DNA from: a candidate division WWE3 bacterium RAAC2_WWE3_1
Lineage (GTDB): Bacteria > Patescibacteriota > WWE3 > UBA101185 > UBA10185
Direction of reading: 5' to 3'
Length of the DNA: 47,428 bases
Assembly: GCA_000503835.1 (NCBI GenBank)
Contig: CP006914.1
Location: 109,790 to 157,217, forward strand
Positions within the stretch are counted from its first letter, which is position 1; each line of letters opens with the position of its first letter. Shown here piece by piece: positions 7,923 through 33,282 of this stretch. The position numbers were made by a program, and so were the translations under genes. The notes below the pieces were generated by a model. The model had not been told where the DNA came from. It saw only the letters and a program-made list of their open reading frames with translations, and searched no databases.

Positions 7923-8006
7923 TCGGAACAAAAGAGGATAAAATGACTTCAACGTCTGTTAGACTGAATTACCTAATAATGATAGGATACTGTGCGGACT
8001 CGGCAT

Positions 8007-9209
8007 ATGCAGCACCAAGGTGAAAAATACAACATAATCTGCCTTTCAAACCAACTCTGGGATTATCCCCTTTGGACGAACAAAAAACACGTTATGACAA
8101 GGCTCGAAAAGCTCGGACACAACGTATTGTTCGTTGACCCTCCTATTAACACCGGGCGTTTGTTTATGCGCCAGGTTCTAAAGGGTAAGTGGAGCCTGTC
8201 AAAACTGCTTACAAAAAAAGAAAAGAGCGGAAATGTTCTCGTGTACTCCCCGCTGGATTTTTCTCCCGCACATGAAAAACACGCCGAATTTCATGCCAAG
8301 TCTATTCAGAAAGCCGCAAAGGAATTTTTTAATCCGGACCGCAACACCATTCTTTGGGTGTACCACGTCGAGATAACAGGTCTTGAACAATATCTAAAAT
8401 ACATCGAGCATGATTTTCTGGTCTATGACTGCGTTGATAATTATGCGGGTTTTCCAAAGTACAGCACTCCGGAGAAAAAAGAGGCAATAAATAAAAAAGA
8501 GCAGAATTTGGCGATGAGAGCGAACGTTGTCTTTTCAACCGCTCCCGGTTTAGTAGATAAACTCAAGAAATTTAATTCGAATGTTTATTTCACCCCCAAC
8601 GTCGGTGATTACCCGAAGTTTTTTGATATTAAAAATCGGGTGAAAGAATTTCCGGAGGATATAAGTTCCATTCCACGCCCCATCATAGGTTTTTATGGAG
8701 CGGTTGATGATTATAAGTTCGACAGGGAGCTTATGAAAAAGATTGTAACCGATTACCCGACATTTTCTTTCGTAATCATCGGCCCTATTGCGCTAAAGGA
8801 TAGGGAAGGATCTTTGGAAGAATTGGGTCTCGGGGGTTTTCCGAACCTATATTTTTTGGGCACCAAACCTTTTTCCGAAATACACAAGTATGTTGCCGCG
8901 TTTGACGCTACAATAATCCCTTACAGACTTAATGACTACACTGTGGGTGGGTGTTTCCCCGTAAAATTTCATGAAGGATTAGCTGCGGGACTCCCGACAA
9001 TTGTTACGGATCTTCCGGCCTATGCTCCTTTTGCCGATGTTTGTTATGTCGCAAAAAGTTACAACGAATTTTCTCAGTTCGTGAGAAAAGCTCTGGAAGA
9101 AGACAGCGAAGAAAAAAGAACAGCAAGACAGCTGGTCGCCAAGAACAATGATTGGGACGGAAAAGTTGAACGTATGCTTAGAATCATCGGCGATTTAATA
9201 AAAAGATGA
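8007..9209 (+). CDS. GT1/GT4-like glycosyltransferase (TuaH-like)
   Basis: A soluble, about 400-residue GT-B protein. The N-terminal half has NQLWDYPLWTNK and LVYDCVDNY, which resemble TuaH-type glycosyltransferases. The C-terminal half has IGFYGAVDDYKFD and then KFHEGLAAGLPTIVT, the donor-binding acidic segment of GT-B enzymes. An in-frame GTG at 7992 exists, but a likely promoter (TAGACT 7960-7965, 17 bases, TAGGAT 7983-7988) would start the transcript near 7995, so ATG 8007 is preferred. It begins a run of tightly coupled genes: the next start overlaps its stop by 4 bp. The sugar donor cannot be told from the sequence. Confidence 0.8.
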   Translation: MQHQGEKYNIICLSNQLWDYPLWTNKKHVMTRLEKLGHNVLFVDPPINTGRLFMRQVLKGKWSLSKLLTKKEKSGNVLVYSPLDFSPAHEKHAEFHAKSIQKAAKEFFNPDRNTILWVYHVEITGLEQYLKYIEHDFLVYDCVDNYAGFPKYSTPEKKEAINKKEQNLAMRANVVFSTAPGLVDKLKKFNSNVYFTPNVGDYPKFFDIKNRVKEFPEDISSIPRPIIGFYGAVDDYKFDRELMKKIVTDYPTFSFVIIGPIALKDREGSLEELGLGGFPNLYFLGTKPFSEIHKYVAAFDATIIPYRLNDYTVGGCFPVKFHEGLAAGLPTIVTDLPAYAPFADVCYVAKSYNEFSQFVRKALEEDSEEKRTARQLVAKNNDWDGKVERMLRIIGDLIKR

Positions 9210-10354
9210 AAATTCTCTACACCCACAACTCATCTAAACAGGGAGGCATGGAACAGCATGTTTTGGATCTTGTTAAAGGAATGCTAAGTGTGGGGAATGA
9301 AGTCTTTGTCTGGTGTCCAGTAGGAAAACCTGCGGATATTTATGAGGGGGCAGGGGCAAAGGTTTTTAGAAAAAGCATCGAATCCGATTTTGACCGTGCG
9401 TATATCGATGAGCTGACCACTTTCTTAAAGGAAACACAGATCGAGGTTATTCACGCCCACGAACTAAAAGCCGCGGCTAACGCACTTGTTGCCGCCAGGA
9501 ACGCCCACACTCCGGTCAAAATAACGCACGTTCATACGCCAATCTCCGAATGGAAGATAAACCCCACCAAACGCAAAGTGGACACGCTCTTTTACAGTTT
9601 TATCGTAAACCGCTTTTCCGATGCTGAGATCGCTCTAACCGAGTCGAAAAAGAAGATAAAAATAAAGGAAGGCATAAATAAAGATAAAATCGTTGTGATA
9701 CCAAACGGTCTTGATATAACAAAGCTCACCGTTTCTCAGATTACAAAAACAGACTACGAAGAGGAGATAAGAAAAAAGTATGGGATAAATAAGAACGCCT
9801 TTGTGTTCGGGAATGTCGGAAGAATATCTCGGGAAAAAGGCCATGACATTTTATTGACCTCCTACAAAAAGTTTTTAAGCACCGACATGTATCATTCCAA
9901 GGATTTCGTGCTGTTCATTGCCGGGGGAGGTGAGTTGGAGAATGATATCAGACAGCTGGCAATTACGAAGGGTGTTGGTGATAAAGTTATTTTTACGGGT
10001 GAATTTCCTGCAGAAGACCTGGTAAAGATTTATTCTGCTTTTGACTTTTTTGTTTTTCCGACTTTGGCGGAGGGTTTTGGCTTAGTTCTTGTCGAAGCCA
10101 TGTACATGGGACTTCCTGTTATATGTTCCGATCTTGAAGTATTGAAAGAGGTTGCAGGAGACACGGTTACTTATTTCCGAGCCGGTGACCCTTCCGACCT
10201 TTCTGAAAAAATGATTGAAGCCTATGAAAAATACGTTAACAATGAGCAGGAGCCCCGTATGCGGGGTAAACAAAGGGTAACCGAACTCTTTACCATCGAG
10301 GCCTTTACGAACAGTTACGTTTCACTTTACGAAAGGATGTTGAACAAAAAATGA
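9206..10354 (+). CDS. GT4 family glycosyltransferase
   Basis: The 382-residue GT-B enzyme has an N-terminal acceptor domain starting MKILYTHNSSKQGGMEQH, where the glycine-rich loop is typical of GT4. This is followed by VIPNGLD, then GRISREKGHD and FPTLAEGFGLVLVEAM with the E-x7-E motif that binds the nucleotide sugar. It overlaps both neighbours by 4 bp (ATGA), so it is translationally coupled in the glycan operon. It probably adds one sugar to the lipid-linked intermediate in the cytoplasm. Specificity is unknown. Confidence 0.88.
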   Translation: MKILYTHNSSKQGGMEQHVLDLVKGMLSVGNEVFVWCPVGKPADIYEGAGAKVFRKSIESDFDRAYIDELTTFLKETQIEVIHAHELKAAANALVAARNAHTPVKITHVHTPISEWKINPTKRKVDTLFYSFIVNRFSDAEIALTESKKKIKIKEGINKDKIVVIPNGLDITKLTVSQITKTDYEEEIRKKYGINKNAFVFGNVGRISREKGHDILLTSYKKFLSTDMYHSKDFVLFIAGGGELENDIRQLAITKGVGDKVIFTGEFPAEDLVKIYSAFDFFVFPTLAEGFGLVLVEAMYMGLPVICSDLEVLKEVAGDTVTYFRAGDPSDLSEKMIEAYEKYVNNEQEPRMRGKQRVTELFTIEAFTNSYVSLYERMLNKK

Positions 10355-11490
10355 AAATACTAATGTTGGGAAGATACCATTTAATGGAGCACGGCGGGGG
10401 AGATAAAGTGCAAATAGAGAACACCGCGCGGGAACTAAGGGAGCTGGGTGTCGATGTTGAAATCAAAACAGACGAAGATTTTATTCCCCAAAACTATGAT
10501 CTTATTCACATATTTCAACTGGATTGGACACCCGAGACCTATTTATACGCCAAAAAAGCTCATGAAGCCGGAAAACCGATAATTTTGTCGCCGATCCACC
10601 ACAGCATCAAGGAGGTGAAAAGGTTCGACGACGAATACGTGTTCGATTTCCGAAGACTTTCAAAGGTTATTTTTGGCAACCAGTTTCACCGCGACACATT
10701 TAAAAATGTTTACAGATCATTAGCCGACCCAAAAAAAATTAAACCCACCATTTTAAGCGTTACACACGGTTTTCAAAAAATGCAGAAAGAAGTCTTGGAG
10801 ATGTCGCAGAAAGTTTTGGTTCAGACCGACCTCGAAACGAAAGATTTGGAAGACACGTTCGGTGTGAAAATAGATGCAGTAAAAGTTCCTAATGGGGTTA
10901 GCAGAAACTTTATTGAACAGGACGCCGGGGCTGAAAAAAGAAATCCCCTCAACTTAAGTGATTACATTATTTGCGTAGGACGTATCGAACCGAGAAAAAA
11001 CCAATTGAAGATAATTGAGGCTGTCGAAAAACTTAGGAATGAAACAGGAGAAGATCTGCAGTTGGTTTTTATCGGAGTATCTGCCGGATTGAAACATTTT
11101 GAGTATGGAAGTATGTTCAATAAAAGAAAAGCCGAAAATGCCTGGATCCACCACATTGAGAAAGTTCCCTATTCGGAAATGCCCGATTACTACCGAAACG
11201 CTAAGGTAGGTGTAAGCGCGAGTTGGTTCGAGACCACCGGTCTGACAAGCCTTGAGGCCCTTTTTTGCGGTACAAACGCCGTAGCTTCAGGCGAAAGAGC
11301 CCGGGAGTATCTCAAAGATTATGCGTCATACTGCGACCCGGGTAGTATAGATTCTATAGCGGACGCAATAAAAACCCAGCTAAAGGCTCCAGGACCTCAA
11401 ATTGCCCCTGAATTGAGAGAAGAATATACTTGGGAAAAAGCCGCGGCGAAGACGCTGGCCGTTTATGAAGAGGTATTGAACAAATGGTAG
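10351..11490 (+). CDS. GT4 family glycosyltransferase
   Basis: A 379-residue GT-B protein. The N-terminus has MLGRYHLMEHGGGDK, the middle has KVPNGVSRNF and ICVGRIEPRKNQ, and the C-terminal donor domain has ASWFETTGLTSLEALFCGT, a variant of the E-x7-E segment. It is coupled by an ATGA overlap to the preceding glycosyltransferase and by a 7-bp overlap to the next gene. It acts in the cytoplasm on the same glycan. Compared with its neighbour the donor segment is less canonical, so a different donor sugar is plausible. Confidence 0.85.
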   Translation: MKILMLGRYHLMEHGGGDKVQIENTARELRELGVDVEIKTDEDFIPQNYDLIHIFQLDWTPETYLYAKKAHEAGKPIILSPIHHSIKEVKRFDDEYVFDFRRLSKVIFGNQFHRDTFKNVYRSLADPKKIKPTILSVTHGFQKMQKEVLEMSQKVLVQTDLETKDLEDTFGVKIDAVKVPNGVSRNFIEQDAGAEKRNPLNLSDYIICVGRIEPRKNQLKIIEAVEKLRNETGEDLQLVFIGVSAGLKHFEYGSMFNKRKAENAWIHHIEKVPYSEMPDYYRNAKVGVSASWFETTGLTSLEALFCGTNAVASGERAREYLKDYASYCDPGSIDSIADAIKTQLKAPGPQIAPELREEYTWEKAAAKTLAVYEEVLNKW

Positions 11491-14354
11491 AAATTGCAGT
11501 AATAGCAACAATTTGTATTCTTTCATACGTACTAATACTGCGTAATCTGGATTTTGCAGTGTACGTTCTCATTCTGCTTTCCGTTCTTCTGCATAAAGAG
11601 CTTTTCAGTTTTTACAGATGGGATTTGATGCCGATCCGCGCTTTTATGCTGGCGCTTCTCGCCGCGGTCTTAACCAAAATTGTCATGTGGCTGATAAAAG
11701 ACAGAAACTTTTCCGTGCTTTTTTCCAAACTAAGAGATCCTGTTGTGGTATCGATAGTTCTGTTGTGGGTTGTGCGTTTGATATCAATAGTAAATTCGAA
11801 GAACATCCAGTCCTCCGTATTTTTGATGGGATTTTTCACGACATCGACCGCGATGTTCCTGCTCCTCTATTTCACGTACAAAAACCGACCTGACCGGGTA
11901 TTAAAATATCTTCGTTTTTACATTTACACGGTGTTTACACTCACTCTGTTCGGCTGGTTCCAATTTTATTTGTATCAGACGACCGGTGTGATTATAGGAG
12001 CTTTGTGGAATATTCCCGGGAACCTGCCCCGTGTGGGAGCGACTTTTTGGGATGTAAACCATTACGGCGCACTATTGTCGGCGCTTTTGCCTCTTCTTGG
12101 GGTCTTAATAATTATGGGAAAGAGTCTAAAGGGTAGGGCTGTCGATGTTTTGATGTTTATCTCCATGCTGGCCGCGCTTTTACTTACGAATAGCCGTACG
12201 GCGTGGATAATGGCAGGCGTGACCTTTTTGGTTTTTGTTTCTACCCTTATATTCCGGAAGATTGGTTCCAAAGGTGTTTTATATCTTTTTATCGCACTGG
12301 TTGTAATATCCGTACCGTTCATAAGGGAATACAGTATAAAATCCAGTCCGTTCAGGGCACAGATCAAGCAGTATTTTCATTACCGCATGGACTCTTTCGA
12401 CTCCCATTTCATGCTTATAACAGGAACCGTACAGATTTTTGAGAAATATCCTTTGATCGGGGGAGGGTATGGGTCTTTCTTCGAGCATTTTAGCAGTACA
12501 AAGATTGCACCGACCTTTTTTGGCCGCGATCCTGCCGCCCTGAACACAAGAGTTCCCGCGCACACCATATGGGGTGAACTTATAGCGGAAACGGGTATTT
12601 TAGGATTAACGACATTCAGCGTCTTTGTATTTTCCATGCTGGCCGCGCTTTTATACGGAGCTTTAAAACTCGAAAAAAAGAAAGAATTTTTAATCAGCGC
12701 GGTCTTTTTTGCAACAATTGTCGGCTGGCTCATTGCGGGAATTTTTTATTCTTACAGTTCGGAATTTTTCTGGATAATTTTTTCTTTTATAGCCGCGTGG
12801 GGTGCAGGCACAGTATATGAAAAATACGGCAGAAATATTGTCTTTTCATACTTTTTCCGATCAGAAAAGATAGTTCCGCTTGTTTTGGCAGGTCTCGCCA
12901 TTATTTTAATATTTTCCGGGCTGGGAAAGAACCACCTTATTCCTTACGACGAAGCGATATACGCTAAGATAGCTAAAAATATGGTCACTTCCGGTGAATA
13001 TTTGGTACAGGAATGGAAACCTCTGAGTGTCTGGTACGAAAAACCGCCTTTATATATGTGGCTCGTGTCGTTATTTATGTCCCTCTTTGGGGCAACTCCC
13101 TTTGCGGCCAGACTGCCGAGTGCCGTAATGGGGTTTCTTACCGTGATGATGGTTTACTTTGCCGGTAAAAAAATGTTTAACAAGACGACCGGCTTTTTAT
13201 CTGCCCTAGCCCTGCTAACAACCACTCAGTATCTGTATTATTCGCGTGCGGCCATGACGGATGTAACCGCCACCTTTTTTATATCGGCCTCTCTCTTTGC
13301 TTACATATTTATCAGAGGAAAGAAAAAGAGTTTCTTATGGCTGTTTCCCGGATTTTTCGCGGGGTTTGCAGTCATGACAAAAGGTGTGGTAGGACTTCTT
13401 CCGTTCCCGGCAATAATTTTATGTGAACTGTACCTTTTATTGACAGGTCAGTCCAAATTTTCAGCTAAAGCCATAAAACCCCTTATACTTACACTTCTGG
13501 GATGGGCTGTGGTTGCACTGCCCTGGCATATTTACACATACAAAATGTTCGGCACGGCATTTTTAGATCAGTACCTCGGATATCACGTTTGGGACAGGGC
13601 AGTTACGGCCATAGAAGATAAAGGAAGGCCGTTCTTCTGGTACGTAACCGTTCTGAAAGTAAGTATGCGGCTCTGGTTTGTAGTTCTATTAGCTGCCTTG
13701 CCCGCTGCCGTATACAAGGTTTTCAAAAAAAGACGTGTTTATGTATTTCTGCTTGTCTGGGCTCTTTTTGTCTTCTTTTTCTTTTCGTCGGCCAAATCCA
13801 AATTGGTCTGGTATGTGATGCCGATGTATCCCCCGCTCGCGTTGATTGTCGGTTCTTTTATTGATAAAACCCTAAATTATTTTATGAGACGGTTTAGGAA
13901 ATTCGATACTTTGTGGTTTAAAGCAACAACGGTTTTTTTAGTCACGGCTGTATCCCTGTCGTATCTTTTTTACTACAGGGAACTTGTTTACACTTCGGAT
14001 CTTACCGGTGCCGAAGCCGAACTATTGATTTCTAAGGACGCGCGTTTCGGAATTAAAACCAAGGTTTACATTGACCGTATGGATATTCCGCTGGCGATGT
14101 ATTACACCGACGGTTCTTTCAACATTCTGGACTTTAGAGCCGACAGGTACGATCGTGTGCCCATACCTGTGTACGATCAGCCGACCGTACTTCTTACGAA
14201 AAAAGGCAGGTTTAGTGAAAACGTTGTCGGGTTTAATTACAAACCGGTCGTCGTTGAAGAACGGGGCGACTGGGTACTTTGGTATTTTATATCTCAGAAG
14301 GAATATGATTCCCGGACAGTACCCCCGGCTGTTCCGGTAGTGGCGAACCCCTGA
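11484..14354 (+). CDS. Fusion of O-antigen ligase/polymerase (Wzy_C) and GT39/ArnT-like transferase
   Basis: A 956-residue integral membrane protein with two halves. Residues about 1-455 look like the WaaL/Wzy_C family: many helices, a loop with TNSRTAW, and a large periplasmic-type loop ending in VPAHTIWGELIAETG, where the His matches the conserved His of this family. Residues from about 480 look like GT39/ArnT: a membrane helix, then IPYDEAIYAKIAKNMV with the acidic pair expected in the first outer loop, later KPPLYMW and MTDVTATF, then a chain of helices and a soluble C-terminal domain. The protein could join or polymerise a glycan and add a sugar on the outer face. Start ATG 11484 overlaps the preceding gene. 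Its last 68 bp overlap the convergent flippase gene. Confidence 0.8.
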   Translation: MVEIAVIATICILSYVLILRNLDFAVYVLILLSVLLHKELFSFYRWDLMPIRAFMLALLAAVLTKIVMWLIKDRNFSVLFSKLRDPVVVSIVLLWVVRLISIVNSKNIQSSVFLMGFFTTSTAMFLLLYFTYKNRPDRVLKYLRFYIYTVFTLTLFGWFQFYLYQTTGVIIGALWNIPGNLPRVGATFWDVNHYGALLSALLPLLGVLIIMGKSLKGRAVDVLMFISMLAALLLTNSRTAWIMAGVTFLVFVSTLIFRKIGSKGVLYLFIALVVISVPFIREYSIKSSPFRAQIKQYFHYRMDSFDSHFMLITGTVQIFEKYPLIGGGYGSFFEHFSSTKIAPTFFGRDPAALNTRVPAHTIWGELIAETGILGLTTFSVFVFSMLAALLYGALKLEKKKEFLISAVFFATIVGWLIAGIFYSYSSEFFWIIFSFIAAWGAGTVYEKYGRNIVFSYFFRSEKIVPLVLAGLAIILIFSGLGKNHLIPYDEAIYAKIAKNMVTSGEYLVQEWKPLSVWYEKPPLYMWLVSLFMSLFGATPFAARLPSAVMGFLTVMMVYFAGKKMFNKTTGFLSALALLTTTQYLYYSRAAMTDVTATFFISASLFAYIFIRGKKKSFLWLFPGFFAGFAVMTKGVVGLLPFPAIILCELYLLLTGQSKFSAKAIKPLILTLLGWAVVALPWHIYTYKMFGTAFLDQYLGYHVWDRAVTAIEDKGRPFFWYVTVLKVSMRLWFVVLLAALPAAVYKVFKKRRVYVFLLVWALFVFFFFSSAKSKLVWYVMPMYPPLALIVGSFIDKTLNYFMRRFRKFDTLWFKATTVFLVTAVSLSYLFYYRELVYTSDLTGAEAELLISKDARFGIKTKVYIDRMDIPLAMYYTDGSFNILDFRADRYDRVPIPVYDQPTVLLTKKGRFSENVVGFNYKPVVVEERGDWVLWYFISQKEYDSRTVPPAVPVVANP

Positions 14355-15540
14355 AACGGGAGATAAAATACACTACTGTTACTAAACCTGCTATGGCCGA
14401 GACAAGATTAGACCATGCAATTCCGTATAAGGATAAACTTGGCACAAGAATTAATGCTGTCAGACCGTACGCGGAAAGTTTCACAACAGTAGCGGCGATA
14501 ATATACCCGGTTTTACTTTCGACAAAGAAAAGATTTTCTATAAAAGTGTGAATAGCTGAAACAGCCGCGGCAAGAATTAAAATATCCAGCAGTTTTACGG
14601 ACCCGGAAAATTTTTCTCCGAAAATTGTAGTTATAAAAAGTTCCGAACCGGCGATAGCTACCACCGCCAAGGCAAGAATACCGCCGGCTATCAATGTTGT
14701 TTCTTTATAGTCGTAATTTGTTCCGGTCAATTTACGTGTGGCGTTTTTGGGCAGTAATACGGCAAAAACCGATAGCGACGCAAGCGAGAATAAGTTTGAA
14801 ATTTTGTTAGCCAGGGAAAGTATGCCCACGTCGCCGAATCCTTTTGTGATTTTTGCAATTGCGTTGTTGAGAGTTCCCCAGCTTTCGTAGACTATTTGAG
14901 AAACGCCGGCCGGTGAGGATTCTTTGAAAAGTTTGCGGACTCCCTGGAAATTGAAGATAAACTTTTTGTTCTCGGTGGGCAAAAAGAAATATAAGAATAT
15001 TCCGGCAAAGATAGTCAATGAAAAAACACCGAAAGCTAAATTTAAGCTGGGTGTAACGATTGCCGTGAAAAAAAGTAATGCGAAAACACCTTTGACCAAT
15101 TGCGGAATTGTATTTAAAAGAACCATCCCGGCATATTTTTCCGCTCTCTGGAAGTATGCATAAAAAAGGTAGTTCATCGTGTATGCAAGAATTCCGAGAA
15201 TAAATATTGTGGCGGTTGTTCCGTCAAATATATTTAATAATTTTAAGCTGATTAATGAAACGGGAACCGAAACCAAAAACTGCAAAACTTTGAGTGTAAA
15301 AAGTGTGCTGGAGAGCTCGGCGTTCTGTTCTTTTATCGATCTTGCCACATAGACCGAATTTGCCCCAAAATCCACTATTTTTGAAATGGTAAGAAGGAGC
15401 GTAGACAAAAGTGCATACTTGCCGAATGTTTCCAGATCAAGGGTGCGCGCCACTGCGGTTAGGAACAGGAAGCCAAGCCCGGCGTTAAATATATTTCCGA
15501 GACCTACAAATGAGATCTTTCTTAAGGATTTAGTCGGCAC
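14287..15540 (-). CDS. wzx: Wzx-type polysaccharide flippase (MVF/MATE-like)
   Basis: A 417-residue protein with about 12 hydrophobic helices in the arrangement of PST/MVF-family polysaccharide flippases. It opens with a short basic segment and VGLGNIFNAGLGFLFL; internal segments such as FGKYALLSTLLL and AVLLPKNATR are family-like. It should move the lipid-linked oligosaccharide from the cytoplasmic to the outer face of the membrane. The start is GTG at 15540; an earlier ATG is closed by an immediate stop. It lies 28 bp downstream of rfbD on the same strand, so the two probably form an operon. Its 3' end overlaps the convergent fusion gene by 68 bp. Confidence 0.8.
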   Translation of the reverse strand: MPTKSLRKISFVGLGNIFNAGLGFLFLTAVARTLDLETFGKYALLSTLLLTISKIVDFGANSVYVARSIKEQNAELSSTLFTLKVLQFLVSVPVSLISLKLLNIFDGTTATIFILGILAYTMNYLFYAYFQRAEKYAGMVLLNTIPQLVKGVFALLFFTAIVTPSLNLAFGVFSLTIFAGIFLYFFLPTENKKFIFNFQGVRKLFKESSPAGVSQIVYESWGTLNNAIAKITKGFGDVGILSLANKISNLFSLASLSVFAVLLPKNATRKLTGTNYDYKETTLIAGGILALAVVAIAGSELFITTIFGEKFSGSVKLLDILILAAAVSAIHTFIENLFFVESKTGYIIAATVVKLSAYGLTALILVPSLSLYGIAWSNLVSAIAGLVTVVYFISRFRGSPLPEQPGVLSGNHIPSEI

Positions 15541-15568: not shown

Positions 15569-16459
15569 TTAGAACGAGAGCTTGGTCAGGGCGTCGTCTA
15601 TGTTTTCCTTCCAGGTGCCGAACTTAACATTAAGCGTGTTTTCCGTGTATTCTGTATTTAAATTTATGTAAAGAGGCCGGGGAATTCCTGATTTTTGTGA
15701 AAACTCTTTTAGTGAACCGGGTTTAAGTATTGAGACATCGCGCCCGGACTTTTCCAGTAAATACCCGGCGAAATCAAAATGCGAGACAGGCTTGTGTGAA
15801 GCAACGTGAAAAACTCCTGTGCGGTGTCCTTCAATAATTTTATCGAGGCTTTCGGAGAGATCATTTATGTAGGTCGGCGTTATAGTATTGTCTGCAAACA
15901 TCGGATACAAACTATTCGTATTGTACAAATGGAAGATTGTATGAAGCACGTCTTTTTTTGTGTGGGCAGGTCCGGCGAACGGATAAGCAATCCGTACTAT
16001 CGTAGAGTCACCATTCGACTTTATTAATGCCGTCTCACCCTCAAGCTTCGTTATTCCGTACCAACTTATTTTTTTATAATCAGAGCTGTAATTTTCATTT
16101 TCGTAGTACATTTCTGCGGGACTGCTTTTTCCCGGAAATATCAGGTCCGTACTTATTTGAATCAGAAAAATACCCTTCTTTTTACAGATTTTCGCAAGGT
16201 TATTTACTCCCCCGACATTTGTTTTCCAAACCGTACCGTCTTTATCATTCCTTTGGGTTTCGGCATTTTTGGTATCGGTGTAGGCGGCAAAATTTATTAT
16301 GCACTTTGGGCTTGTCTCGGAAATATAATTTTCCACCTGTACCGGATTGGTAATATCCATTTCTGTTTCGTCGGGACAGATAAAGTTGTGTGTCCTCTGT
16401 GAGTAATTTATATAGTGTGTACCGACGAGTCCGCCGGCTCCGGTGACTAAAATTCTCAT
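15569..16459 (-). CDS. rfbD: dTDP-4-dehydrorhamnose reductase
   Basis: A 296-residue short-chain (extended SDR) enzyme. The N-terminus carries the NAD(P)-binding GAGGLVG (residues 7-13), followed by DITNP and INFAAYTDT, all typical of RmlD. The catalytic Tyr-x3-Lys appears as WYGITKLEGE. It performs the last step of dTDP-L-rhamnose synthesis, reducing the 4-keto sugar. It is divergent from rfbA, which starts about 105 bp away. A TAAAAT box lies 9 bases ahead of its ATG on the minus strand, so its mRNA probably has almost no leader. The rest of the pathway (rfbA, B, C) is next door, which supports the call. Confidence 0.9.
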   Translation of the reverse strand: MRILVTGAGGLVGTHYINYSQRTHNFICPDETEMDITNPVQVENYISETSPKCIINFAAYTDTKNAETQRNDKDGTVWKTNVGGVNNLAKICKKKGIFLIQISTDLIFPGKSSPAEMYYENENYSSDYKKISWYGITKLEGETALIKSNGDSTIVRIAYPFAGPAHTKKDVLHTIFHLYNTNSLYPMFADNTITPTYINDLSESLDKIIEGHRTGVFHVASHKPVSHFDFAGYLLEKSGRDVSILKPGSLKEFSQKSGIPRPLYINLNTEYTENTLNVKFGTWKENIDDALTKLSF

Positions 16460-16511
16460 ATAATTGGAATTTTACATTAATCTGCGTGTATATACATTTC
16501 AGTTCTGATGT

Positions 16512-16545
16512 TTGAAGGATAGTTGAAACAATGGTAAACTATCCT
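16512..16545 (+). promoter_or_regulatory. rfbA promoter with overlapping operator-like inverted repeat
   Basis: TTGAAG (16512-16517), 17 bases, TAAACT (16535-16540). Over it lies a 9-bp perfect inverted repeat, AGGATAGTT (16516-16524) and AACTATCCT (16537-16545), separated by 12 bases. It covers the end of the -35 and all of the -10, the position expected of a repressor site. Confidence 0.55.
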
Positions 16546-16564
16546 GTAGTTCGCCCAAACCTAT

Positions 16565-17299
16565 ATGAAAGGCATAATTCTAGCCGGAGGATTAGGTTCA
16601 CGCCTTTACCCTCTGACCTACGCAACAAATAAGCACCTTCTCCCGATATACGATAAACCGATGATATTTTATCCCATCCGGACTTTAGTAAAGGCCGGCA
16701 TAAAGGAAATTATGATAGTTGTCGGAGGACCGCACGCCGGTCATTTTATTTCTGTCCTGAAAAACGGAATAGATTTTGGGATTAAGCATCTGGAGTTCGC
16801 GTTTCAGGATACGGTTGACCATAAAGGAAAAAAGATTGAAGGCGGGATATCCCATGCCCTATCTTTGTGTGAGGATTTTGCGGATAACTCGTCGGTAGCG
16901 GTCATACTTGGTGATAATACAACCGACGCCGACATGTCCGCCGCGGTAAAAGAGTTTACTGACGGCGCCACGATATTTCTTAAAAGAGTTTCGGATCCGA
17001 ACAGATACGGTGTTCCCGTATTTAACGGTAAAAAAATAATTTTGATTGAAGAAAAACCGCGGAAACCAAAATCAGATTACGCGGTAACAGGGTTGTATCT
17101 TTACGACAACACGGTTTTTAAAAGAATAAAAACCCTGAAACCTTCATTGAGAGGTGAGCTTGAGATTACTGATCTGAATAATTCTTATATTAAAGACGGT
17201 AAACTTAACTGGGCGAAATTGTCGGGATTTTGGACAGACGCAGGTACCTACGATAGTTTATTTATTGCCAGCGAATATTGGGCCAAAAAACATTTATGA
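16565..17299 (+). CDS. rfbA: Glucose-1-phosphate thymidylyltransferase (short form)
   Basis: The 244-residue protein has the nucleotidyltransferase signature at its N-terminus (MKGIILAGGLGSRLYPLT), then NKHLLPIYDKPMI, ILGDNTTD for metal binding, and LIEEKPRKPKSDYAVTGLY. It makes dTDP-glucose from dTTP and glucose-1-phosphate, the first step toward dTDP-rhamnose. Usual RmlA is about 290 residues; this belongs to the shorter RfbA-like form lacking the C-terminal extension. It leads the rfbABC operon behind an operator-bearing promoter, with no clear Shine-Dalgarno sequence. Its stop overlaps the next start by 4 bp. Confidence 0.9.
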   Translation: MKGIILAGGLGSRLYPLTYATNKHLLPIYDKPMIFYPIRTLVKAGIKEIMIVVGGPHAGHFISVLKNGIDFGIKHLEFAFQDTVDHKGKKIEGGISHALSLCEDFADNSSVAVILGDNTTDADMSAAVKEFTDGATIFLKRVSDPNRYGVPVFNGKKIILIEEKPRKPKSDYAVTGLYLYDNTVFKRIKTLKPSLRGELEITDLNNSYIKDGKLNWAKLSGFWTDAGTYDSLFIASEYWAKKHL

Positions 17300-18321
17300 A
17301 AATACTTATAACAGGAGGATGCGGCTTTATCGGATCTAATTTTGTCAGATTTTGGAGTAAGAAGTACCCGAAAGATGAAATAGTGGTATTGGATAAACTT
17401 ACTTACGCCGGTCACAAAGAAAATCTGAAGGGCGTAGAGCATGTGTTTATTAAAGGTGACATTTGCGACGCATCTGCCGTGAAAAAAGCCATGAAAAGCG
17501 CGGACGTGGTCGTTCATTTTGCCGCCGAATCCCATGTTGATCGCAGTATTATGGAACCGGGCGTGTTCATGCAGACTAATGTGATAGGAACTCATATCTT
17601 ACTTGAAGAGGCTTTGAGACAAAAAGTGAAACTTTTTCATCATGTTTCGACAGATGAAGTTTTCGGTTCCCTTCCGGTCGATAGACCCGACCTTCGTTTT
17701 AACGAGTCAACAAATTATTCTCCCAACAGCCCGTATTCTGCCTCCAAGGCAGCTTCGGATCACCTTGTCCGTGCGTACCATAAAACTTTCGGACTTCCGG
17801 TAACAATTACGAATACCTCAAATAACTATGGACCGTATCAGGATCCTGAAAAATTGATACCGAGATTTATTACCGGTCTTATTGAAGGAAAAAAAGTTCC
17901 TCTCATGGGAAACGGAGAGAATGTTCGTGACTGGTGTTATGTAGAAGACCACTGTACCGCTATGGATGCAGTTATCGGCAGTGCCCTGAAAGATAAAAAA
18001 ATACTCGGGGAAACGTTCTGTGTGGGCGGAGATTCTGAAAAGACCAATTTAGAAACGACAAATATCCTTTTAAAGATTTTTGCCAAGGACAGTTCGTGGA
18101 TAGAAAAAATTCCCCACCGTCTGGGGCATGATGAAAGATACGCGATTGACTCCTCTAAGATTAAAAAAGTTCTTGGATGGGAACCGGCAAATAATTTTGA
18201 AAAAAGTCTTGTCGAAACCGTCAGGTGGTACAAGGACAACGAGTGGTGGTGGAAACCATTGAAAGAGGGACGTCCGCTGATCGATCCTGATGTACAATTG
18301 AAGCGTGCAAACAGTGTCTGA
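17296..18321 (+). CDS. rfbB: dTDP-glucose 4,6-dehydratase
   Basis: A 341-residue extended SDR. It has the NAD-binding TGGCGFIGSNFVRFW at the N-terminus, HFAAESHVDRS, the catalytic TDEVFG segment and YSASKAASDHL (Tyr-x3-Lys), then NNYGPYQDPEKLIP. All are diagnostic for RmlB. It converts dTDP-glucose to the 4-keto-6-deoxy sugar. ATG 17296, which overlaps the rfbA stop (ATGA), is chosen over an in-frame TTG at 17278, since the family starts directly with MKILITGG. Its 3' end overlaps rfbC by 17 bp. Confidence 0.93.
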   Translation: MKILITGGCGFIGSNFVRFWSKKYPKDEIVVLDKLTYAGHKENLKGVEHVFIKGDICDASAVKKAMKSADVVVHFAAESHVDRSIMEPGVFMQTNVIGTHILLEEALRQKVKLFHHVSTDEVFGSLPVDRPDLRFNESTNYSPNSPYSASKAASDHLVRAYHKTFGLPVTITNTSNNYGPYQDPEKLIPRFITGLIEGKKVPLMGNGENVRDWCYVEDHCTAMDAVIGSALKDKKILGETFCVGGDSEKTNLETTNILLKIFAKDSSWIEKIPHRLGHDERYAIDSSKIKKVLGWEPANNFEKSLVETVRWYKDNEWWWKPLKEGRPLIDPDVQLKRANSV

Positions 18322-18901
18322 AACAATCACAACACCTGCGGACATAGAAGGTCTCCTGGTTATTGAGAGACCTACGATTCCTGATGAGCGGGGTTTTTTC
18401 CGCGAGGTACTTGAGAAAAGGGATATCGAGAAAGCCACGGGAAAAAAGCTCGAAATAGTGCAGTGGAATCACTCCCGTTCCCGACCCGGCGTTATTAGGG
18501 GGATTCACGCCGAACCCTGGGATAAGATTGTTTACTGTGTTCGCGGTTCGGTGCTGTCTGTTGTTGTAGATCTGAGGACCGAATCTGTCACTTTCGGCAA
18601 GGTCTTTTCTAAAGAGCTCGGCGAAGATAGTTTGTGTGCGTTATATATTCCTCAGGGCGTAGCTAACTCATTTTGCGTAGCAGGTTCAGAACCGGCGGAT
18701 TACAGCTATTTGGTAACTGCCTACTATGAAGGCAAACCGACCCCCGCTATTTTCTGGAACGACCCTTTAGTTACAAAACAATTCGGCGGCTGGCCGGTAA
18801 AAGACCCCATTATAAGCGAAAAAGATAAGAATTACCCGACCCTGAAAGAAAAGTTCGGCGGCGAAGTTGATTTTTCCAAATACCCGTGGCTTAACTTATG
18901 A
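18305..18901 (+). CDS. rfbC: dTDP-4-dehydrorhamnose 3,5-epimerase family protein
   Basis: A 198-residue RmlC-like cupin starting with GTG. It has PDERGFFRE, then RGIHAEPWDKIVYCVRGS, with the catalytic His of the RGxH motif and the conserved Lys, VVDLRTES, and FWNDP near the end. The segment that in typical RmlC reads IPxGFAHGF is here IPQGVANSF, so the usual second His is Asn. The operon position between rfbB and a glycosyltransferase supports the epimerase role in dTDP-L-rhamnose synthesis. The substitution leaves open altered activity or a different epimer product. It overlaps rfbB by 17 bp and the next gene by 4 bp. Confidence 0.82.
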   Translation: MQTVSETITTPADIEGLLVIERPTIPDERGFFREVLEKRDIEKATGKKLEIVQWNHSRSRPGVIRGIHAEPWDKIVYCVRGSVLSVVVDLRTESVTFGKVFSKELGEDSLCALYIPQGVANSFCVAGSEPADYSYLVTAYYEGKPTPAIFWNDPLVTKQFGGWPVKDPIISEKDKNYPTLKEKFGGEVDFSKYPWLNL

Positions 18902-19854
18902 AAAAAGTATCCGTGCTGATCGCAAATAACAACACCAGGGATGTTTTGAAATTGTGTCTGGAAAACCTGAAAGACAGTTATGAAAATTTGGAAGTTGTTG
19001 TCGCGGACACCGATTCTTCCGACGGTTCCGCTGAAATGGTCGGGAAAGAGTTCTCCTGGGTAAAATTATTAAAACTTCCCAATAACGGGCTCGCCTTTGC
19101 TTTAAATAAATGTTTTGAAGCCGCCACCGGAGACTACTATCTGTATTTAGGTACTGACGCTTTTCCAAAAGAAGGCACAATAAAGGGACTTGTTGATTAT
19201 TTTGAGGAGCTGTCTCACGCTGACGTTGGCGCGGCCACTGTAAAACTTTTGTTACGAGGCGGGGCTCAGGACATGGACGGGCACCGGGGGTTTCCCACTC
19301 CATTTGTCTCGATGTTCCACTTTTTAGGTTTGGATAAACTTTTCCCCAAATCAAAAACGTTCGCCCGTTACTTTATGACTTACGAAGATCCCGAAAAAGA
19401 ACACGAGATAGATACCTGCATAACCCACTTTTTGTTTGTCCCGGCAAAAGTGACCCGGAAGGTCGGAAGATGGGATGATAAAACGTTCTTTTTATATGGA
19501 GAAGACATCGATTATTGCTTCAGAATTAAAGAGGCAGGTTTCAAAATCATGTATCTTCCTCAATTCCGCGCAGAACATTGGAAGGGTGTGACGATCGGCA
19601 TAAGAAAGGAATCGCAGGATGTGGCGATGAGAGTGCCCATTGTAAAATTCCGTGACCGGGAGCTGACTCTGGGAAAATTTCGTGTCGAACTTCAAAGATT
19701 ATCTACCGATGCCATGGAGCTGTTCTACAGAAAACATTACAGCAATAAATACCCATTAATCGTCGGTTTGTTCGTCGTCGCCACGATAAGAATATTTAAG
19801 GCCTACCGCGTAAATAAGCAAAGATATATAAATTGGAGGAAAGGTTTGAAGTGA
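18898..19854 (+). CDS. GT2 family glycosyltransferase (rhamnosyltransferase-like)
   Basis: A 318-residue GT-A enzyme. Motifs in order: VSVLIANNNTRD at the N-terminus, VVADTDSSDGSAEMV for the nucleotide, YYLYLGTDAFPKEG in place of the usual DxD region, and FFLYGEDIDYCFRIKEAGF, the ED-x-D segment near the acceptor. The order and spacing match WbbL-like rhamnosyltransferases. Placement directly behind rfbABC, with a 4-bp overlap, suggests that it uses dTDP-rhamnose. The C-terminus has a hydrophobic stretch that could attach it to the membrane. Donor identity is inferred from context only. Confidence 0.87.
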   Translation: MKKVSVLIANNNTRDVLKLCLENLKDSYENLEVVVADTDSSDGSAEMVGKEFSWVKLLKLPNNGLAFALNKCFEAATGDYYLYLGTDAFPKEGTIKGLVDYFEELSHADVGAATVKLLLRGGAQDMDGHRGFPTPFVSMFHFLGLDKLFPKSKTFARYFMTYEDPEKEHEIDTCITHFLFVPAKVTRKVGRWDDKTFFLYGEDIDYCFRIKEAGFKIMYLPQFRAEHWKGVTIGIRKESQDVAMRVPIVKFRDRELTLGKFRVELQRLSTDAMELFYRKHYSNKYPLIVGLFVVATIRIFKAYRVNKQRYINWRKGLK

Positions 19855-21005
19855 GAGCTCATAAGGAACCTCTAATTGCGATAGATGCGAGATTTCTCGG
19901 CGAAGCCGGTCCCGGCAGGTACGTTAAGAACATCATCGAACAGCTTGAAAAGACCGATACAACGAACGCGTATGTTATCTATCTGAGGCCAAAAGGTTTT
20001 GAACAATACAAACCGTCCTCACCGAATTTTAAAAAGGTTTTGGCCGACTACAAGTGGTATTCGTGGCAGGAGCAGTTCGGCTTTCTATTCAGAATTTTAA
20101 AGGACAGACCGGATATTTTTTATGTTCCCCATTTCAATATTCCGGTTTTGTATCCGGGAAAACTTGTTACGGCCATACCGGACATTATCATGCATTCTTT
20201 TAGCACCGAGCGCGGTACGACTTTGCCCAAGTTTTACTTCAGGTTTAAAAAATTGGTTTATAAAACGGTAGTTTATTGGGCGGTTAAACGCTCGTTTAAA
20301 GTTATCGTTCCTTCTCGGGACGTAAAGTCGGATTTTATTAAAGCTTATCCCGGTGTTTCTCCGGAAAAGTTTATCGTTGCATACGAGGGTGTTGATCCCG
20401 TTTTTTTTGAAGAACGTTCTGCTTCCTCTGAAATTTTCAGGGAGTTTGGTATCGACCGGCCGTATTTTCTCTATATAAGCAGTATGTACGAGCACAAGAA
20501 CGTGCCTTTCCTGATTGACGCTTTTGAAGATTTCTCAAGCTCAAATAATTACCGGCTCGTTCTTATCGGGAAAAAAGACAAGTTTTCGGAGCATGTCGCC
20601 GAAATTATCAAATCCAAAGACCTTCAGAAAAAGATTTTAATGCCCGGGATGACGAGATACGTAACTGATGATGAGATTAACTTTTTGCGCAGGAATGCAT
20701 CGGCTTATGTTTTTCCGTCGCTAAAAGAAGGCTTCAGTTTGACACCTCTGGAAGCTCAGGCGGTAGGCCTGCCTTCGGTAATTTCCGACATACCCTGCCA
20801 CAGGGAAATATACAGTGATACGGTTTTGTACTTTGATCCCAAAGATAAAACTGATTTTTTGCGGAAGTTAGAGATTATAACATCTAACGACAGTGTAAGG
20901 CAGAAACTAATCGAACTTGGTTATGAAAATGTTAAAAAATACGATTGGAAAAATACCGCTGAAATAACTCTAAATGTTTTCCGCGACCTTCTGAATAATC
21001 TCTAA
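19851..21005 (+). CDS. GT4 family glycosyltransferase
   Basis: A 384-residue GT-B protein. Start GTG 19851 is favoured: GGAGG at 19835-19839 lies 11 bases upstream, and the GTGA overlap couples it to the preceding stop. An in-frame TTG at 19833 would include the ribosome site in the coding region. Motifs: IAIDARFLGEAGPGRY at the N-terminus, VAYEGVDPVF, LYISSMYEHKN and FPSLKEGFSLTPLEAQAVG with E-x7-E. It probably extends the rhamnose-containing glycan. Its last 36 bp overlap the convergent glycosyltransferase gene. Confidence 0.88.
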   Translation: MRAHKEPLIAIDARFLGEAGPGRYVKNIIEQLEKTDTTNAYVIYLRPKGFEQYKPSSPNFKKVLADYKWYSWQEQFGFLFRILKDRPDIFYVPHFNIPVLYPGKLVTAIPDIIMHSFSTERGTTLPKFYFRFKKLVYKTVVYWAVKRSFKVIVPSRDVKSDFIKAYPGVSPEKFIVAYEGVDPVFFEERSASSEIFREFGIDRPYFLYISSMYEHKNVPFLIDAFEDFSSSNNYRLVLIGKKDKFSEHVAEIIKSKDLQKKILMPGMTRYVTDDEINFLRRNASAYVFPSLKEGFSLTPLEAQAVGLPSVISDIPCHREIYSDTVLYFDPKDKTDFLRKLEIITSNDSVRQKLIELGYENVKKYDWKNTAEITLNVFRDLLNNL

Positions 21006-22112
21006 GGTTTTTTTTGCGGTCCTGTCCCACGTGAATTCCTGCGATCTTAACTTGGCTCCGTAGATCCTTTCCCGCTTGTAGCCTCCGTGGAATATTAACG
21101 CAATGGAATTTCCGATTTCCTCGTAATCCTGTGGGTTTACATATAAAGGGAACTCTCCTCCCACTTCTTTGAACGCCGGTATGTCTGATACAAGTGCGGG
21201 GGTTTCGCAGGCCATGGCCTCCAGTAAAGGTAGTCCGAAACCTTCTTCGAGGGAAATGCTAATGAATGCTTCGGCACCCGAGAATAACGCGGCCAGATCC
21301 TCGTCGGGTAAAAAGCCGGGGAACAGAACATTTTTCTCAACACCGAACTTTTTCGGTGCACCGTAGGATTCCTCGGAGCTCCAGCCGGTTTTTCCCACTA
21401 TAAGTAATTTAGTATCCGAAAGGTCCGGGTTCTTTTTCAGGGCCTCCGAGTAGCCACGCACCATTAGGGGTATGTTTTTTCTCGGTTGAATGGTGGAAAC
21501 GAACAAAAGGTATTTGTTGTCGCCCAGGTCATATTTTTTTCTGACGGCATTTATTTCTTCGGGGTCCCGTTTATAAAAATTGTCGCCGACGCCTTCGCTT
21601 ACTATAGAAATCTTCGAATCGTCTTTTTTTACCCAACCCCTTTTTATGATCTCGTTTTTTGTAGCGATGGTGGGTACTATTAGTGCATGGGATTTTTTTG
21701 CCAGGTATTCCTCGGGTCGTCCCAGCAGTATTCTTTTTATTGGATTTAAACTTGCTTTTACAAACTTGTACTCAAGACCGTGTATCATACCGACCACCAT
21801 CAGTTTTCTATTCCTGCATATCGGCATGGTGTGGACCGGAGTAAAAAAGACATCAACAGGATTTCTTTTTAATTCTTTTGCAAGCCCCGACTGAGTCCAG
21901 GAAACTTTGCTTTTTATTATTATCGGTTTAAATGAATTATTCGAGTAAGTAAGTTTCGAAAAATAATCTTTGCCGGGCTCCCCGCTAAAATATATTTTAT
22001 ATTCGTTGTCCCTGTCTAGCCTTGCCAGAGCATTTATCAAGTTGTAGGTGTATCGCTCAGGGCCGGCGGGGTCTTCGATCAAAAGCCTTTGCCCGTTTAT
22101 TCCGATTTTCAT
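20970..22112 (-). CDS. GT4 family glycosyltransferase (mannosyltransferase-like)
   Basis: A 380-residue GT-B enzyme on the minus strand. It has MKIGINGQRLL and AGPERYTYNL at the N-terminus, VSEGVGDNFY, LFVSTIQPRKNI and ISLEEGFGLPLLEAMAC with E-x7-E. The overall pattern resembles WbdA/MtfA-type mannosyltransferases, but specificity is uncertain. It is a single-gene unit. A perfect TATAAT box lies 10 bases ahead of its ATG on the minus strand, so the mRNA leader is only a few bases. It faces the preceding GT4 gene tail to tail with a 36-bp coding overlap. Confidence 0.88.
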   Translation of the reverse strand: MKIGINGQRLLIEDPAGPERYTYNLINALARLDRDNEYKIYFSGEPGKDYFSKLTYSNNSFKPIIIKSKVSWTQSGLAKELKRNPVDVFFTPVHTMPICRNRKLMVVGMIHGLEYKFVKASLNPIKRILLGRPEEYLAKKSHALIVPTIATKNEIIKRGWVKKDDSKISIVSEGVGDNFYKRDPEEINAVRKKYDLGDNKYLLFVSTIQPRKNIPLMVRGYSEALKKNPDLSDTKLLIVGKTGWSSEESYGAPKKFGVEKNVLFPGFLPDEDLAALFSGAEAFISISLEEGFGLPLLEAMACETPALVSDIPAFKEVGGEFPLYVNPQDYEEIGNSIALIFHGGYKRERIYGAKLRSQEFTWDRTAKKTLEIIQKVAENI

Positions 22113-22171
22113 ATTTGTTTTGATTATATTACAAACGGAATTTACCGCTATAGTATAAAATGGAAGTTAAT

Positions 22172-23290
22172 ATGAAGGTAGCAATAGTCTGCGACGACCT
22201 GGTTCAGCACGGGGGTGCGGAAAAAATCGTTGAAGCCGTTTCCGACATTTTTCCGAATGCTCCTATTTACACAACCATAGCGTCGAAGAAATGGCGTAAA
22301 TATTTTCGGGAAAAAGGTAGAAAGATCACAACCTCTTTTTTGCAGAAATTTCCTTTTGTCGTTAAGTTCAATCGTTACTATTCGGTCTTTTATTACCATG
22401 TTCTGGCAATAGAAAGTTTTGATTTTTCTAATTATGATCTGGTGTTTTCTATTTCTTCGAGATTTGCACATTTAGTTGTTACAGGTCCATCGACTAAACA
22501 TATTTGTTATTTGAATACACCCGGGCGTATGTTTTGGGAGCCGTTCGATTATTTTGAAAAAGAAAACTTCGGCGTTCCGGGTTTTTTAAAAAGCTTAGCC
22601 ATGTTTTTTGTCAGACCTTTTATTTTTCTAATGAGACTGGTGGATTTTTCTGCCATGAAAAGAGTTGACCTTGTAGTTTCGAACTCAAAGACCACGCAGG
22701 CTCGGTTGAGAAAGTATCATGGGATCGGAAGCTCTATAATACATCCCTTTTGCGGCGAACCTTCTCATGTGCAGGGCCGGGAAAAGGAAGAATATTACTT
22801 AATACTAACGAGACTGGCTTCCTGGAAACGGGTTGACATAGCGCTCCGGGCCTGTGAAAAGCTCGGAAAAAAGCTGAAGGTTGCGGGCGAAGGACCGGAC
22901 GCTAAAAGACTTCAATCCCTTGCAGGAAAGGGCGTAGAATTTCTGGGCAGGGTTTCTGATGAAGAAAAGTGGGCCCTTTTAGCTAACTGCACCGCCCTTA
23001 TTAACACGCAAAAAGAAGATTTTGGGATAGTTCCGCTGGAAGCTATGGCGGTGGGAAGACCAGTTATCGCGTATAACTTCGGAGGAGCCCTCGAAACCGT
23101 CATAGAAGGAGAAACGGGAATTTTTTTCGAAGAGCAGACGGCCGAAGCTTTATCAAAATGTATCGAAAAATTTGAAAAAATGACGTTTGATCCGGCCGTT
23201 TGTAAAAAACAAGCCGGGAAATTCTCATACGGGAACTTTAAATGTAGTATACTTGAAAAAGTAGACGATCTGATATGTACAAAATCCTGA
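22172..23290 (+). CDS. GT4 family glycosyltransferase
   Basis: A 372-residue GT-B enzyme beginning MKVAIVCDDLVQHGGAEK, a common GT4 opening. ATG 22172 is preferred to the in-frame ATG at 22160, because GGAAG at 22162-22166 makes a ribosome site for it and the -10-like TATAGTAT lies too close to 22160. Later motifs are YLILTRLASWKR, KVAGEGPD and INTQKEDFGIVPLEAMAVG with the E-x7-E segment. It overlaps the initiating sugar transferase by 16 bp, so both belong to one operon. It may add the second sugar onto the lipid-linked first sugar. Confidence 0.87.
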   Translation: MKVAIVCDDLVQHGGAEKIVEAVSDIFPNAPIYTTIASKKWRKYFREKGRKITTSFLQKFPFVVKFNRYYSVFYYHVLAIESFDFSNYDLVFSISSRFAHLVVTGPSTKHICYLNTPGRMFWEPFDYFEKENFGVPGFLKSLAMFFVRPFIFLMRLVDFSAMKRVDLVVSNSKTTQARLRKYHGIGSSIIHPFCGEPSHVQGREKEEYYLILTRLASWKRVDIALRACEKLGKKLKVAGEGPDAKRLQSLAGKGVEFLGRVSDEEKWALLANCTALINTQKEDFGIVPLEAMAVGRPVIAYNFGGALETVIEGETGIFFEEQTAEALSKCIEKFEKMTFDPAVCKKQAGKFSYGNFKCSILEKVDDLICTKS

Positions 23291-23910
23291 AAAGAATAAT
23301 GGATATAGTGGGCGCACTGATAGCTCTTGTACTGTTTTCCCCGATATTTTTGTTAACTGCTGTATGGATAAAATGTGTTTCGCCGGGCGGGCCGGTTTTT
23401 GCCGACATACCGGACCGTGTCGGAAAAGATAAAAAACCTTTCAAGTTCATGAAATTCCGTTCGATGTTCCCAAATGCCCATGAGTATCTGATAAAAAATC
23501 AGGAACTTTACCAAAAATACGTAGAGAATAACTATAAAATAAATGCCGAGGAAGACCCGAGAATTATAAAAGGCGGAATTTTCCTTAGGAAATACAGCAT
23601 AGACGAACTGCCCCAATTTATAAATGTATTAAAAGGCGAGATGAGCATCGTAGGCCCTCGCGCTTACTATTTTTTTGAGATCGAGGAGCAGGCCGTAAAA
23701 TTTCCCGATACCGCCGGTTTAATTGAAAAGGCAGTATCGATCAAACCGGGTATTACCGGACCCTGGCAGGTCACCGGAAGGTCTTCGATCGGGTTTGTCG
23801 AGAGGGTGAAACTTGATGCAAGGTATGCAGAGAACAAGTCGATATTGTATGATATATTGATTGTCTTGAAAACGCCGTATGTAGTTTTAACTAAAAAAGG
23901 AGCCGTTTAA
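23275..23910 (+). CDS. Initiating sugar-phosphate transferase (WcaJ/bacterial sugar transferase family)
   Basis: A 211-residue protein with one N-terminal hydrophobic segment (residues about 10-33) and the catalytic domain of polyisoprenyl-phosphate hexose-1-phosphate transferases. Motifs are KFMKFRSMFPNA, then LRKYSIDELPQFINVLKGEMSIVGPR and KPGITGPWQVTGR. It loads the first sugar phosphate onto undecaprenyl phosphate, starting the glycan repeat unit. It is the short, catalytic-only type without the large N-terminal domain of WbaP or WcaJ. The purine-rich AAAAAAGGAG near its end serves as the ribosome site of the next gene. Confidence 0.92.
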   Translation: MYKILKRIMDIVGALIALVLFSPIFLLTAVWIKCVSPGGPVFADIPDRVGKDKKPFKFMKFRSMFPNAHEYLIKNQELYQKYVENNYKINAEEDPRIIKGGIFLRKYSIDELPQFINVLKGEMSIVGPRAYYFFEIEEQAVKFPDTAGLIEKAVSIKPGITGPWQVTGRSSIGFVERVKLDARYAENKSILYDILIVLKTPYVVLTKKGAV

Positions 23911-31787: not shown

Positions 31788-32150
31788 GTGTCCTGTCCTG
31801 CAAAAAAGAAAACCGGGGAGGAAGGTGAAAAGATTGCGGAGAAATACTTGATAGCCCAAGGTTACAAGATTTTAAAACGCAATTGGTTTTGTTACGCGGG
31901 AGAACTGGACATCGTTGCTTTTAAACACAAGCTGATTTTTATTGAAGTGAAAACGTTGTCACGAAGTGTGGGCGAAGACCCGTCGGCGATGCTCACACGC
32001 AGAAAAAGACTGAAGTGGTACCACACATCCAACTACTTTCTTCTTAGACATCATTTATTGGGCGCGGATTGGAGGTACGATTTTGTCGGGATAGTAAAAG
32101 ACGGCGCGAAGTATCGGCTGAGACATTATAAGAATATCCCTATTCCGTAA
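31788..32150 (+). CDS. yraN: UPF0102 / YraN-family endonuclease-like protein
   Basis: A 120-residue protein with GEEGEKIAEKYLIAQGYKIL, then NWFCYAGELDIVAF and LIFIEVKTL. The GExD and ExK residues form the PD-(D/E)xK nuclease core of the YraN family. Its biological role is not settled; links to DNA recombination or repair have been proposed. The GTG start follows a TATATT box by 8 bases. Its stop overlaps the convergent LCP gene by 11 bp. Length is usual for the family. Confidence 0.88.
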   Translation: MSCPAKKKTGEEGEKIAEKYLIAQGYKILKRNWFCYAGELDIVAFKHKLIFIEVKTLSRSVGEDPSAMLTRRKRLKWYHTSNYFLLRHHLLGADWRYDFVGIVKDGAKYRLRHYKNIPIP

Positions 32151-33210: not shown

Positions 33211-33282
33211 ATAGCAATTACACAAATATACCAGTTAAATTATCGAACCTCTATGGCATATTTTCCCCGGTCAAGAAAAGTA

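Follow-up and report, generated by a model that had tools for sequence, protein, structure and literature searches.

The window analysed here is a stretch of 47,428 nucleotides from the candidate division WWE3 bacterium RAAC2_WWE3_1 (contig CP006914.1, positions 109,790 to 157,217), and the subject of this study is one gene in it whose product joins a WaaL/Wzy_C-type half to an ArnT/GT39-like half. The gene is conserved and syntenic across its class, with conserved active-site residues in both halves. We read the fusion, with a probability of about 0.6, as a bimodular envelope-glycan transferase that would work on the outer face of a single membrane and couple both steps. The gene and its halves are as follows.

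11484..14354, plus strand: fusion gene, 956 residues, Wzy_C half and PMT_2/ArnT-like half (single 956-codon open reading frame and Pfam)
11484..12848, plus strand: N-terminal half, residues 1-455, WaaL/Wzy_C-type GT-C (Pfam and PDB relative 7TPG, WaaL)
12849..14351, plus strand: C-terminal half, residues 456-956, ArnT/GT39-like GT-C (Pfam/NCBIfam and PDB relative 5EZM/5F15, ArnT)

Both component families were recognised by Pfam, Wzy_C (PF04932) at residues 224-378 with 45.0 bits (cut-off 31.7) and PMT_2 at residues 520-681 with 84.2 bits (cut-off 26.1), and the two occur together in all 34 full-length homologues of the class. The initial annotation had described one 956-residue frame with such halves, and the domain search bears it out by finding both families, not one alone. 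The PMT model also matches the C-terminal half (54.9 bits). When the family profile was compared with the PDB, ArnT (5EZM/5F15) was matched over profile residues 466-798 with E 3e-47, and WaaL (7TPG/7TPJ) over residues 224-421 with E 4e-5. The best partial matches of the protein in NCBIfam are ArnT and Agl23; against the ArnT equivalog model NF009784 it scores 109.9 bits (112.8 for the C-terminal half), and since this falls short of the cut-off of 567 the protein is not an ArnT equivalog. Thus of the earlier label "ArnT/GT39-like" the resemblance stands and identity with ArnT does not. Pfam found in the fusion protein neither a PglL-specific C-terminal domain (e.g. Wzy_C_2) at E 0.1 nor a GT25 domain, in whose place PMT_2 is present.

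Residue conservation was counted over the 34 full-length homologues, at the following positions. The roles given for WaaL R191, R265 and H313 are those described in PMC10920833.

12195..12197, plus strand: codon of Arg238, aligned with WaaL Arg191 (binding of the undecaprenyl-diphosphate phosphate)
12405..12407, plus strand: codon of His308, occupying the position of WaaL Arg265
12561..12563, plus strand: codon of His360, aligned with WaaL His313 (acceptor activation)
12948..12962, plus strand: DEAIY, D489-Y493, in the first outer loop of the C-terminal half, counterpart of the ArnT DE..RY motif (PMC5377068)
13038..13049, plus strand: EKPP, E519-P522, counterpart of the ArnT YFEKP motif (PMC5377068)
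13260..13262, plus strand: codon of Asp593, invariant in the family alignment
13596..13598, plus strand: codon of Arg705, invariant, aligned with the second-outer-loop Arg of ArnT (5EZM)

In the N-terminal half, R238 is kept in 33 of the 34 homologues, while H360 is invariant (34/34) within the motif H[TNS]xW..E..AETG..G, and His308 is invariant (34/34) and also stands in the degenerate relatives described below. In the C-terminal half, D489 and Y493 are found in all 34 proteins and E490 in 33; the RYA motif of ArnT reads IYA in the fusion family, the Tyr being kept and the Arg replaced by Ile, and the [Y/F]EKP motif has invariant E519, K520 (34/34) and P521. The conserved loop His and the first-loop DE motif noticed in the initial annotation are thus both present. 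In Burkholderia cenocepacia, ArnT activity requires the Tyr of RYA, the Lys (K69) of YFEKP, R254 and E493 (PMC5377068). The first two have clear counterparts in the C-terminal half and R705 is the probable counterpart of R254; the alignment with ArnT leaves out the C-terminal domain, where the required Glu (E493) sits. Because both residue sets are essentially invariant, both active sites look alive, and we infer that both halves are catalytically active. Furthermore, family-averaged hydropathy displays about 12 peaks in the N-terminal half, where H308 and H360 fall in a long loop (283-371), a Lys/Arg-bearing linker between the halves (residues 445-462), and a first loop of the C-terminal half (482-522) with the DE and EKPP motifs. 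This profile is compatible with active sites that lie, in both halves, on the outer face.

The distribution of the fusion was tallied in 45 genomes of the class (WWE3 bacteria, candidate phyla radiation, CPR), and 380 Patescibacteria genomes were searched with the family profile. One full-length or near-full-length co-linear frame is present in 34 of the 45; three (G028, G036, G040) show it in fragments located at a contig end or an assembly gap, three (G008, G014, G018) have only a form with a degenerate C-terminal half, and five no fusion (G003, G010, G011, G016, G032). The G040 copy was considered as a split gene and rejected, as it has runs of X at assembly gaps. The survey of the architecture that had been proposed thus shows it to be class-wide in WWE3, and among the 380 genomes fused proteins were found in this class only. 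Outside it, Patescibacteria have C-half relatives only, in frames of 218-547 residues, and among the genomes checked a Wzy_C gene lies near such a stand-alone relative in G183 only. A plasmid tblastn search gave matches to the GT39 half only, none spanning 80% of the query, and a scan of viral contigs found no relatives.

Divergence runs in parallel in the two halves (r=0.96 between their pairwise distances), which are equally conserved, with a mean identity of 0.39 in each. In a tree of the C-terminal half with 21 stand-alone relatives, the fusions group together, and the only stand-alone gene in their midst is that of G014; a tree in which the fusions form a single clade has the better likelihood and is not rejected (approximately unbiased test, p-AU 0.80). 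The tree of the N-terminal half sets the fusions and the degenerate forms apart from other Wzy_C proteins, with weak basal support and long outgroup branches. The simplest reading is that the fusion arose once, close to the base of the class. A literature search for Wzy_C together with PMT_2 returned no match, and the available part of a CAZy survey of these families names WadA and no GT39/GT83 fusion. Both component families are known and normally occur in separate enzymes, and their combination is apparently undescribed in the literature searched, in keeping with the earlier remark that no standard family with this order is known.

CPR bacteria are known to be monoderm. The genome, a single contig of 878,109 bases, is 99% complete, and its close relatives in the genome collection are candidate division WWE3 bacteria with 83-85% identity. 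Neither LpxC nor Omp85 was found in it, while control genomes matched as expected; lipid A-core therefore cannot be the acceptor, as far as this test goes. Neither marker gives any hint of lipid A or an outer membrane, and lipopolysaccharide (LPS) ligation is excluded within the reach of the same two markers. The outer-membrane, O-antigen setting of the initial annotation finds no support here, and the active sites are predicted to face the outside of a single membrane.

The fusion gene stands in a glycan locus with the following neighbours.

7992..11490, plus strand: three glycosyltransferase genes (TuaH-like, two GT4), directly upstream of the fusion, syntenic in the class
14287..15540, minus strand: Wzx-type flippase (Polysacc_synt, Pfam), convergent with the fusion
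15569..18901, mixed strands: dTDP-rhamnose genes rmlD (minus), rmlA, rmlB and rmlC (plus)
18898..23290: four glycosyltransferase genes (one GT2, three GT4)
23275..23910, plus strand: Bac_transf polyprenyl-phosphate sugar-phosphate transferase, the initiating enzyme
23913-25871: DUF4012 protein, directly after Bac_transf, its position kept across much of the class
32140..33225, minus strand: LytR-CpsA-Psr (LCP) glycopolymer transferase

The fusion gene overlaps the last upstream glycosyltransferase gene by seven bases, and recO and a class II aminoacyl-tRNA synthetase gene come after DUF4012. The order glycosyltransferases, flippase, Bac_transf, DUF4012 is kept across the class, with variable inserts. 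The fusion is the sole Wzy_C protein of its locus, the next Wzy_C place in the genome being about 64 kb away. Elsewhere in the genome, an ArnC-like lipid-phosphate-sugar synthase (C1:809198-810157, 33% identity over residues 8-317) is adjoined by a PMT_2 protein, and lipid-phosphate-sugar donors are plausible in this organism. The 3' ends of the fusion and Wzx genes overlap convergently by 68 bases (14287-14354). At the start of the glycan locus, 5-3565 and 3908-5485 encode proteins of 1186 and 525 residues with multiple transmembrane segments, possibly YfhO/GT-C-like by eye, for which Pfam gave no matches. GT2 and PMT_2 genes also cluster upstream of the window (G000:C1:78939-104249), and the glycan island therefore extends beyond it.

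Several paralogues and relatives have an altered architecture.

L050:8983-11085 and L052:9178-11298: tandem second copies with a motif-poor, shortened C-terminal half
L110:1456-3567 (G010): Wzy_C-WecG/TagA/CpsF protein (Pfam)
L113:977-2998 (G011): Wzy_C-WecG/TagA/CpsF protein (similarity)
L107:864-3431 (G010): Wzy_C-GT4 fusion of 856 residues, family f6

In G004 and G005, the gene directly 3' of the intact fusion, with which it shares about 20 bases, encodes a second protein whose Wzy_C half is intact and whose C-terminal half is shortened. The fusions of G008, G014 and G018 have lost most motif residues of the C-terminal half, and G014 has at the same locus a stand-alone GT39 gene (L049) with intact motifs; so the C-terminal half can decay where another copy exists (G004, G005, G014). 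Further Wzy_C proteins, from this class and from the phylum, have WecG, GT4 or TPR domains as fusion partners. Family f6 of WWE3, in which no ArnT-like fusion was found, has Wzy_C joined to a WecG/TagA/CpsF domain. In G229, a frame of 1010 residues (L112:1686-4715) has an N-terminal Wzy_C and a second half with multiple transmembrane segments that looks GT-C-like by eye and has no match in Pfam, NCBIfam or the PDB.

Among known systems, WadA of Brucella and relatives (GT25 + GT121; PMC9938171, PMC10920833) likewise combines a glycosyltransferase and a WaaL-type ligase with 12 transmembrane segments in one polypeptide; its GT25 domain is proposed to prepare the acceptor and its ligase domain then to ligate (PMC9938171). 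Whereas the partner in WadA is a cytosolic GT25, that of the fusion is a C-terminal membrane GT-C of the lipid-phosphate-sugar class; moreover, both sites of the fusion are predicted on the outer face, and LPS genes were not found. WadA is the nearest precedent for the fusion and shows that such coupling exists. WaaL itself (7TPG/7TPJ; GT121) shares with the N-terminal half the Wzy_C domain and equivalents of R191 and H313, but that half has His308 for R265, occurs with no sign of lipid A and has a GT-C half attached. The C-terminal half is like ArnT (5EZM/5F15; GT83) in its profile match (3e-47), the DE/Y/EKPP first-loop motifs and the second-loop Arg, but it scores far below the equivalog cut-off, has no lipid A acceptor and is joined to a Wzy_C half. 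Stand-alone GT39 proteins of other Patescibacteria (for example L089 and L095) and of the WWE3 genome G014 (L049) are homologous to it and carry the same motifs, but are encoded by separate genes, mostly of about 360-550 residues. The Wzy_C-WecG (L110; relative L113) and Wzy_C-GT4 (L107) proteins of family f6 also hold Wzy_C and a glycosyltransferase in one chain, yet their glycosyltransferase domains are globular, presumably cytosolic, and not of the GT-C type.

We infer the activity of the two halves, their coupling, the donor and the acceptor. The setting would be a Bac_transf/Wzx-dependent pathway of a monoderm CPR bacterium, with the enzyme at work on the outer face of the cytoplasmic membrane. 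There, the Wzy_C half would transfer a flipped undecaprenyl-diphosphate-linked glycan to an acceptor, and the ArnT/GT39-like half, taking a single sugar from a polyprenyl-phosphate-sugar, would prime or decorate that same glycan or acceptor with it. Both steps would be held together by the fusion, as WadA couples acceptor preparation to ligation. The ArnC-like synthase in the genome counts for this reading, as does the intact stand-alone GT39 gene beside the motif-poor fusion of G014. Because His360 stands at the acceptor position, as in O-ligases, we rate a ligase-type transfer, with a surface-layer protein or wall glycan as its acceptor, slightly above polymerisation of repeat units.

Several points weigh on the other side. 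The N-terminal half is not a canonical O-ligase, because WaaL R265 is replaced by His308, and this lost second Arg, together with a locus in which no other polymerase can be recognised, points to a polymerase, not a ligase. Five fused paralogues or relatives of the class have a C-terminal half that has degenerated or been shortened, so that this half may be dispensable in some lineages. Finally, topology and inter-domain geometry rest on sequence and hydropathy, as the AlphaFold2 model, whose input alignment was made of the window and three relatives 83-85% identical, had a predicted local distance difference test (pLDDT) value of 34 and was not used.

The best alternative, possible in our view though less likely than the main reading, takes the N-terminal half as a Wzy-type repeat-unit polymerase and lets the C-terminal half decorate every lipid-linked unit with a side-branch sugar in a Gtr-like manner, either ahead of polymerisation or in its course. 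Besides the missing second O-ligase Arg, it is favoured by a locus with a Wzx flippase, the initiating Bac_transf, many glycosyltransferases and no other Wzy_C protein, in which the nearby LCP transferase could make the final attachment. However, other, unrecognised polymerases could exist, and the invariant His is typical of O-ligases, where polymerases of clan GT-C1 mostly have Asp/Glu at the acceptor position, according to PMC10920833. Because this polymerase scheme is a variant of the bimodular reading, our confidences in the two overlap and do not sum to one.

A two-step protein O-glycosylation, in which a PMT-like C-terminal half would put the first sugar on Ser/Thr of a surface protein and the N-terminal half would ligate a glycan onto it, seems unlikely. 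The PMT_2 and PMT domain matches, the ligase-like His360 and the failure to find LPS genes in the genome agree with it, but the C-terminal half scores higher against ArnT, whose acceptor is a lipid, than against the PMT model, and the acceptor protein is putative. Somewhat less probable still is that the Wzy_C half alone is catalytic and the ArnT-like half a relic or scaffold: Wzy_C residues do persist beside a degenerate C-terminal half in copies of G004, G005, G008, G014 and G018, but in the 34 main members the C-half motifs are as invariant as those of the N-terminal half, at the same mean identity. That a sequencing or assembly error joined two genes, a case raised in the initial annotation, is ruled out, because 34 independent assemblies of the class share the same stop-free fused frame, and nothing was found in its favour.

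The bimodular reading bears on WWE3, a group of tiny bacteria that have not been cultivated, and on CPR bacteria in general, which live on or with other cells and whose envelope glycans are almost unknown. The class-wide conserved fusion suggests a physical coupling of sugar-chain transfer and single-sugar addition in the building of the surface coat. Tentatively, and with less confidence than in the bimodular reading itself, the fusion may be the first enzyme to hold a GT-CB site for a lipid-diphosphate glycan and a GT-CA site for a lipid-phosphate monosaccharide in one chain on one membrane face, with substrate passed between them, as a class-wide core step of CPR envelope synthesis. The fusion names two active sites to mutate, and its locus can serve as a marker for the surface polysaccharide of WWE3. 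It is also a membrane-to-membrane addition to the bimodular ligases, a group that is still small and has WadA at its head.

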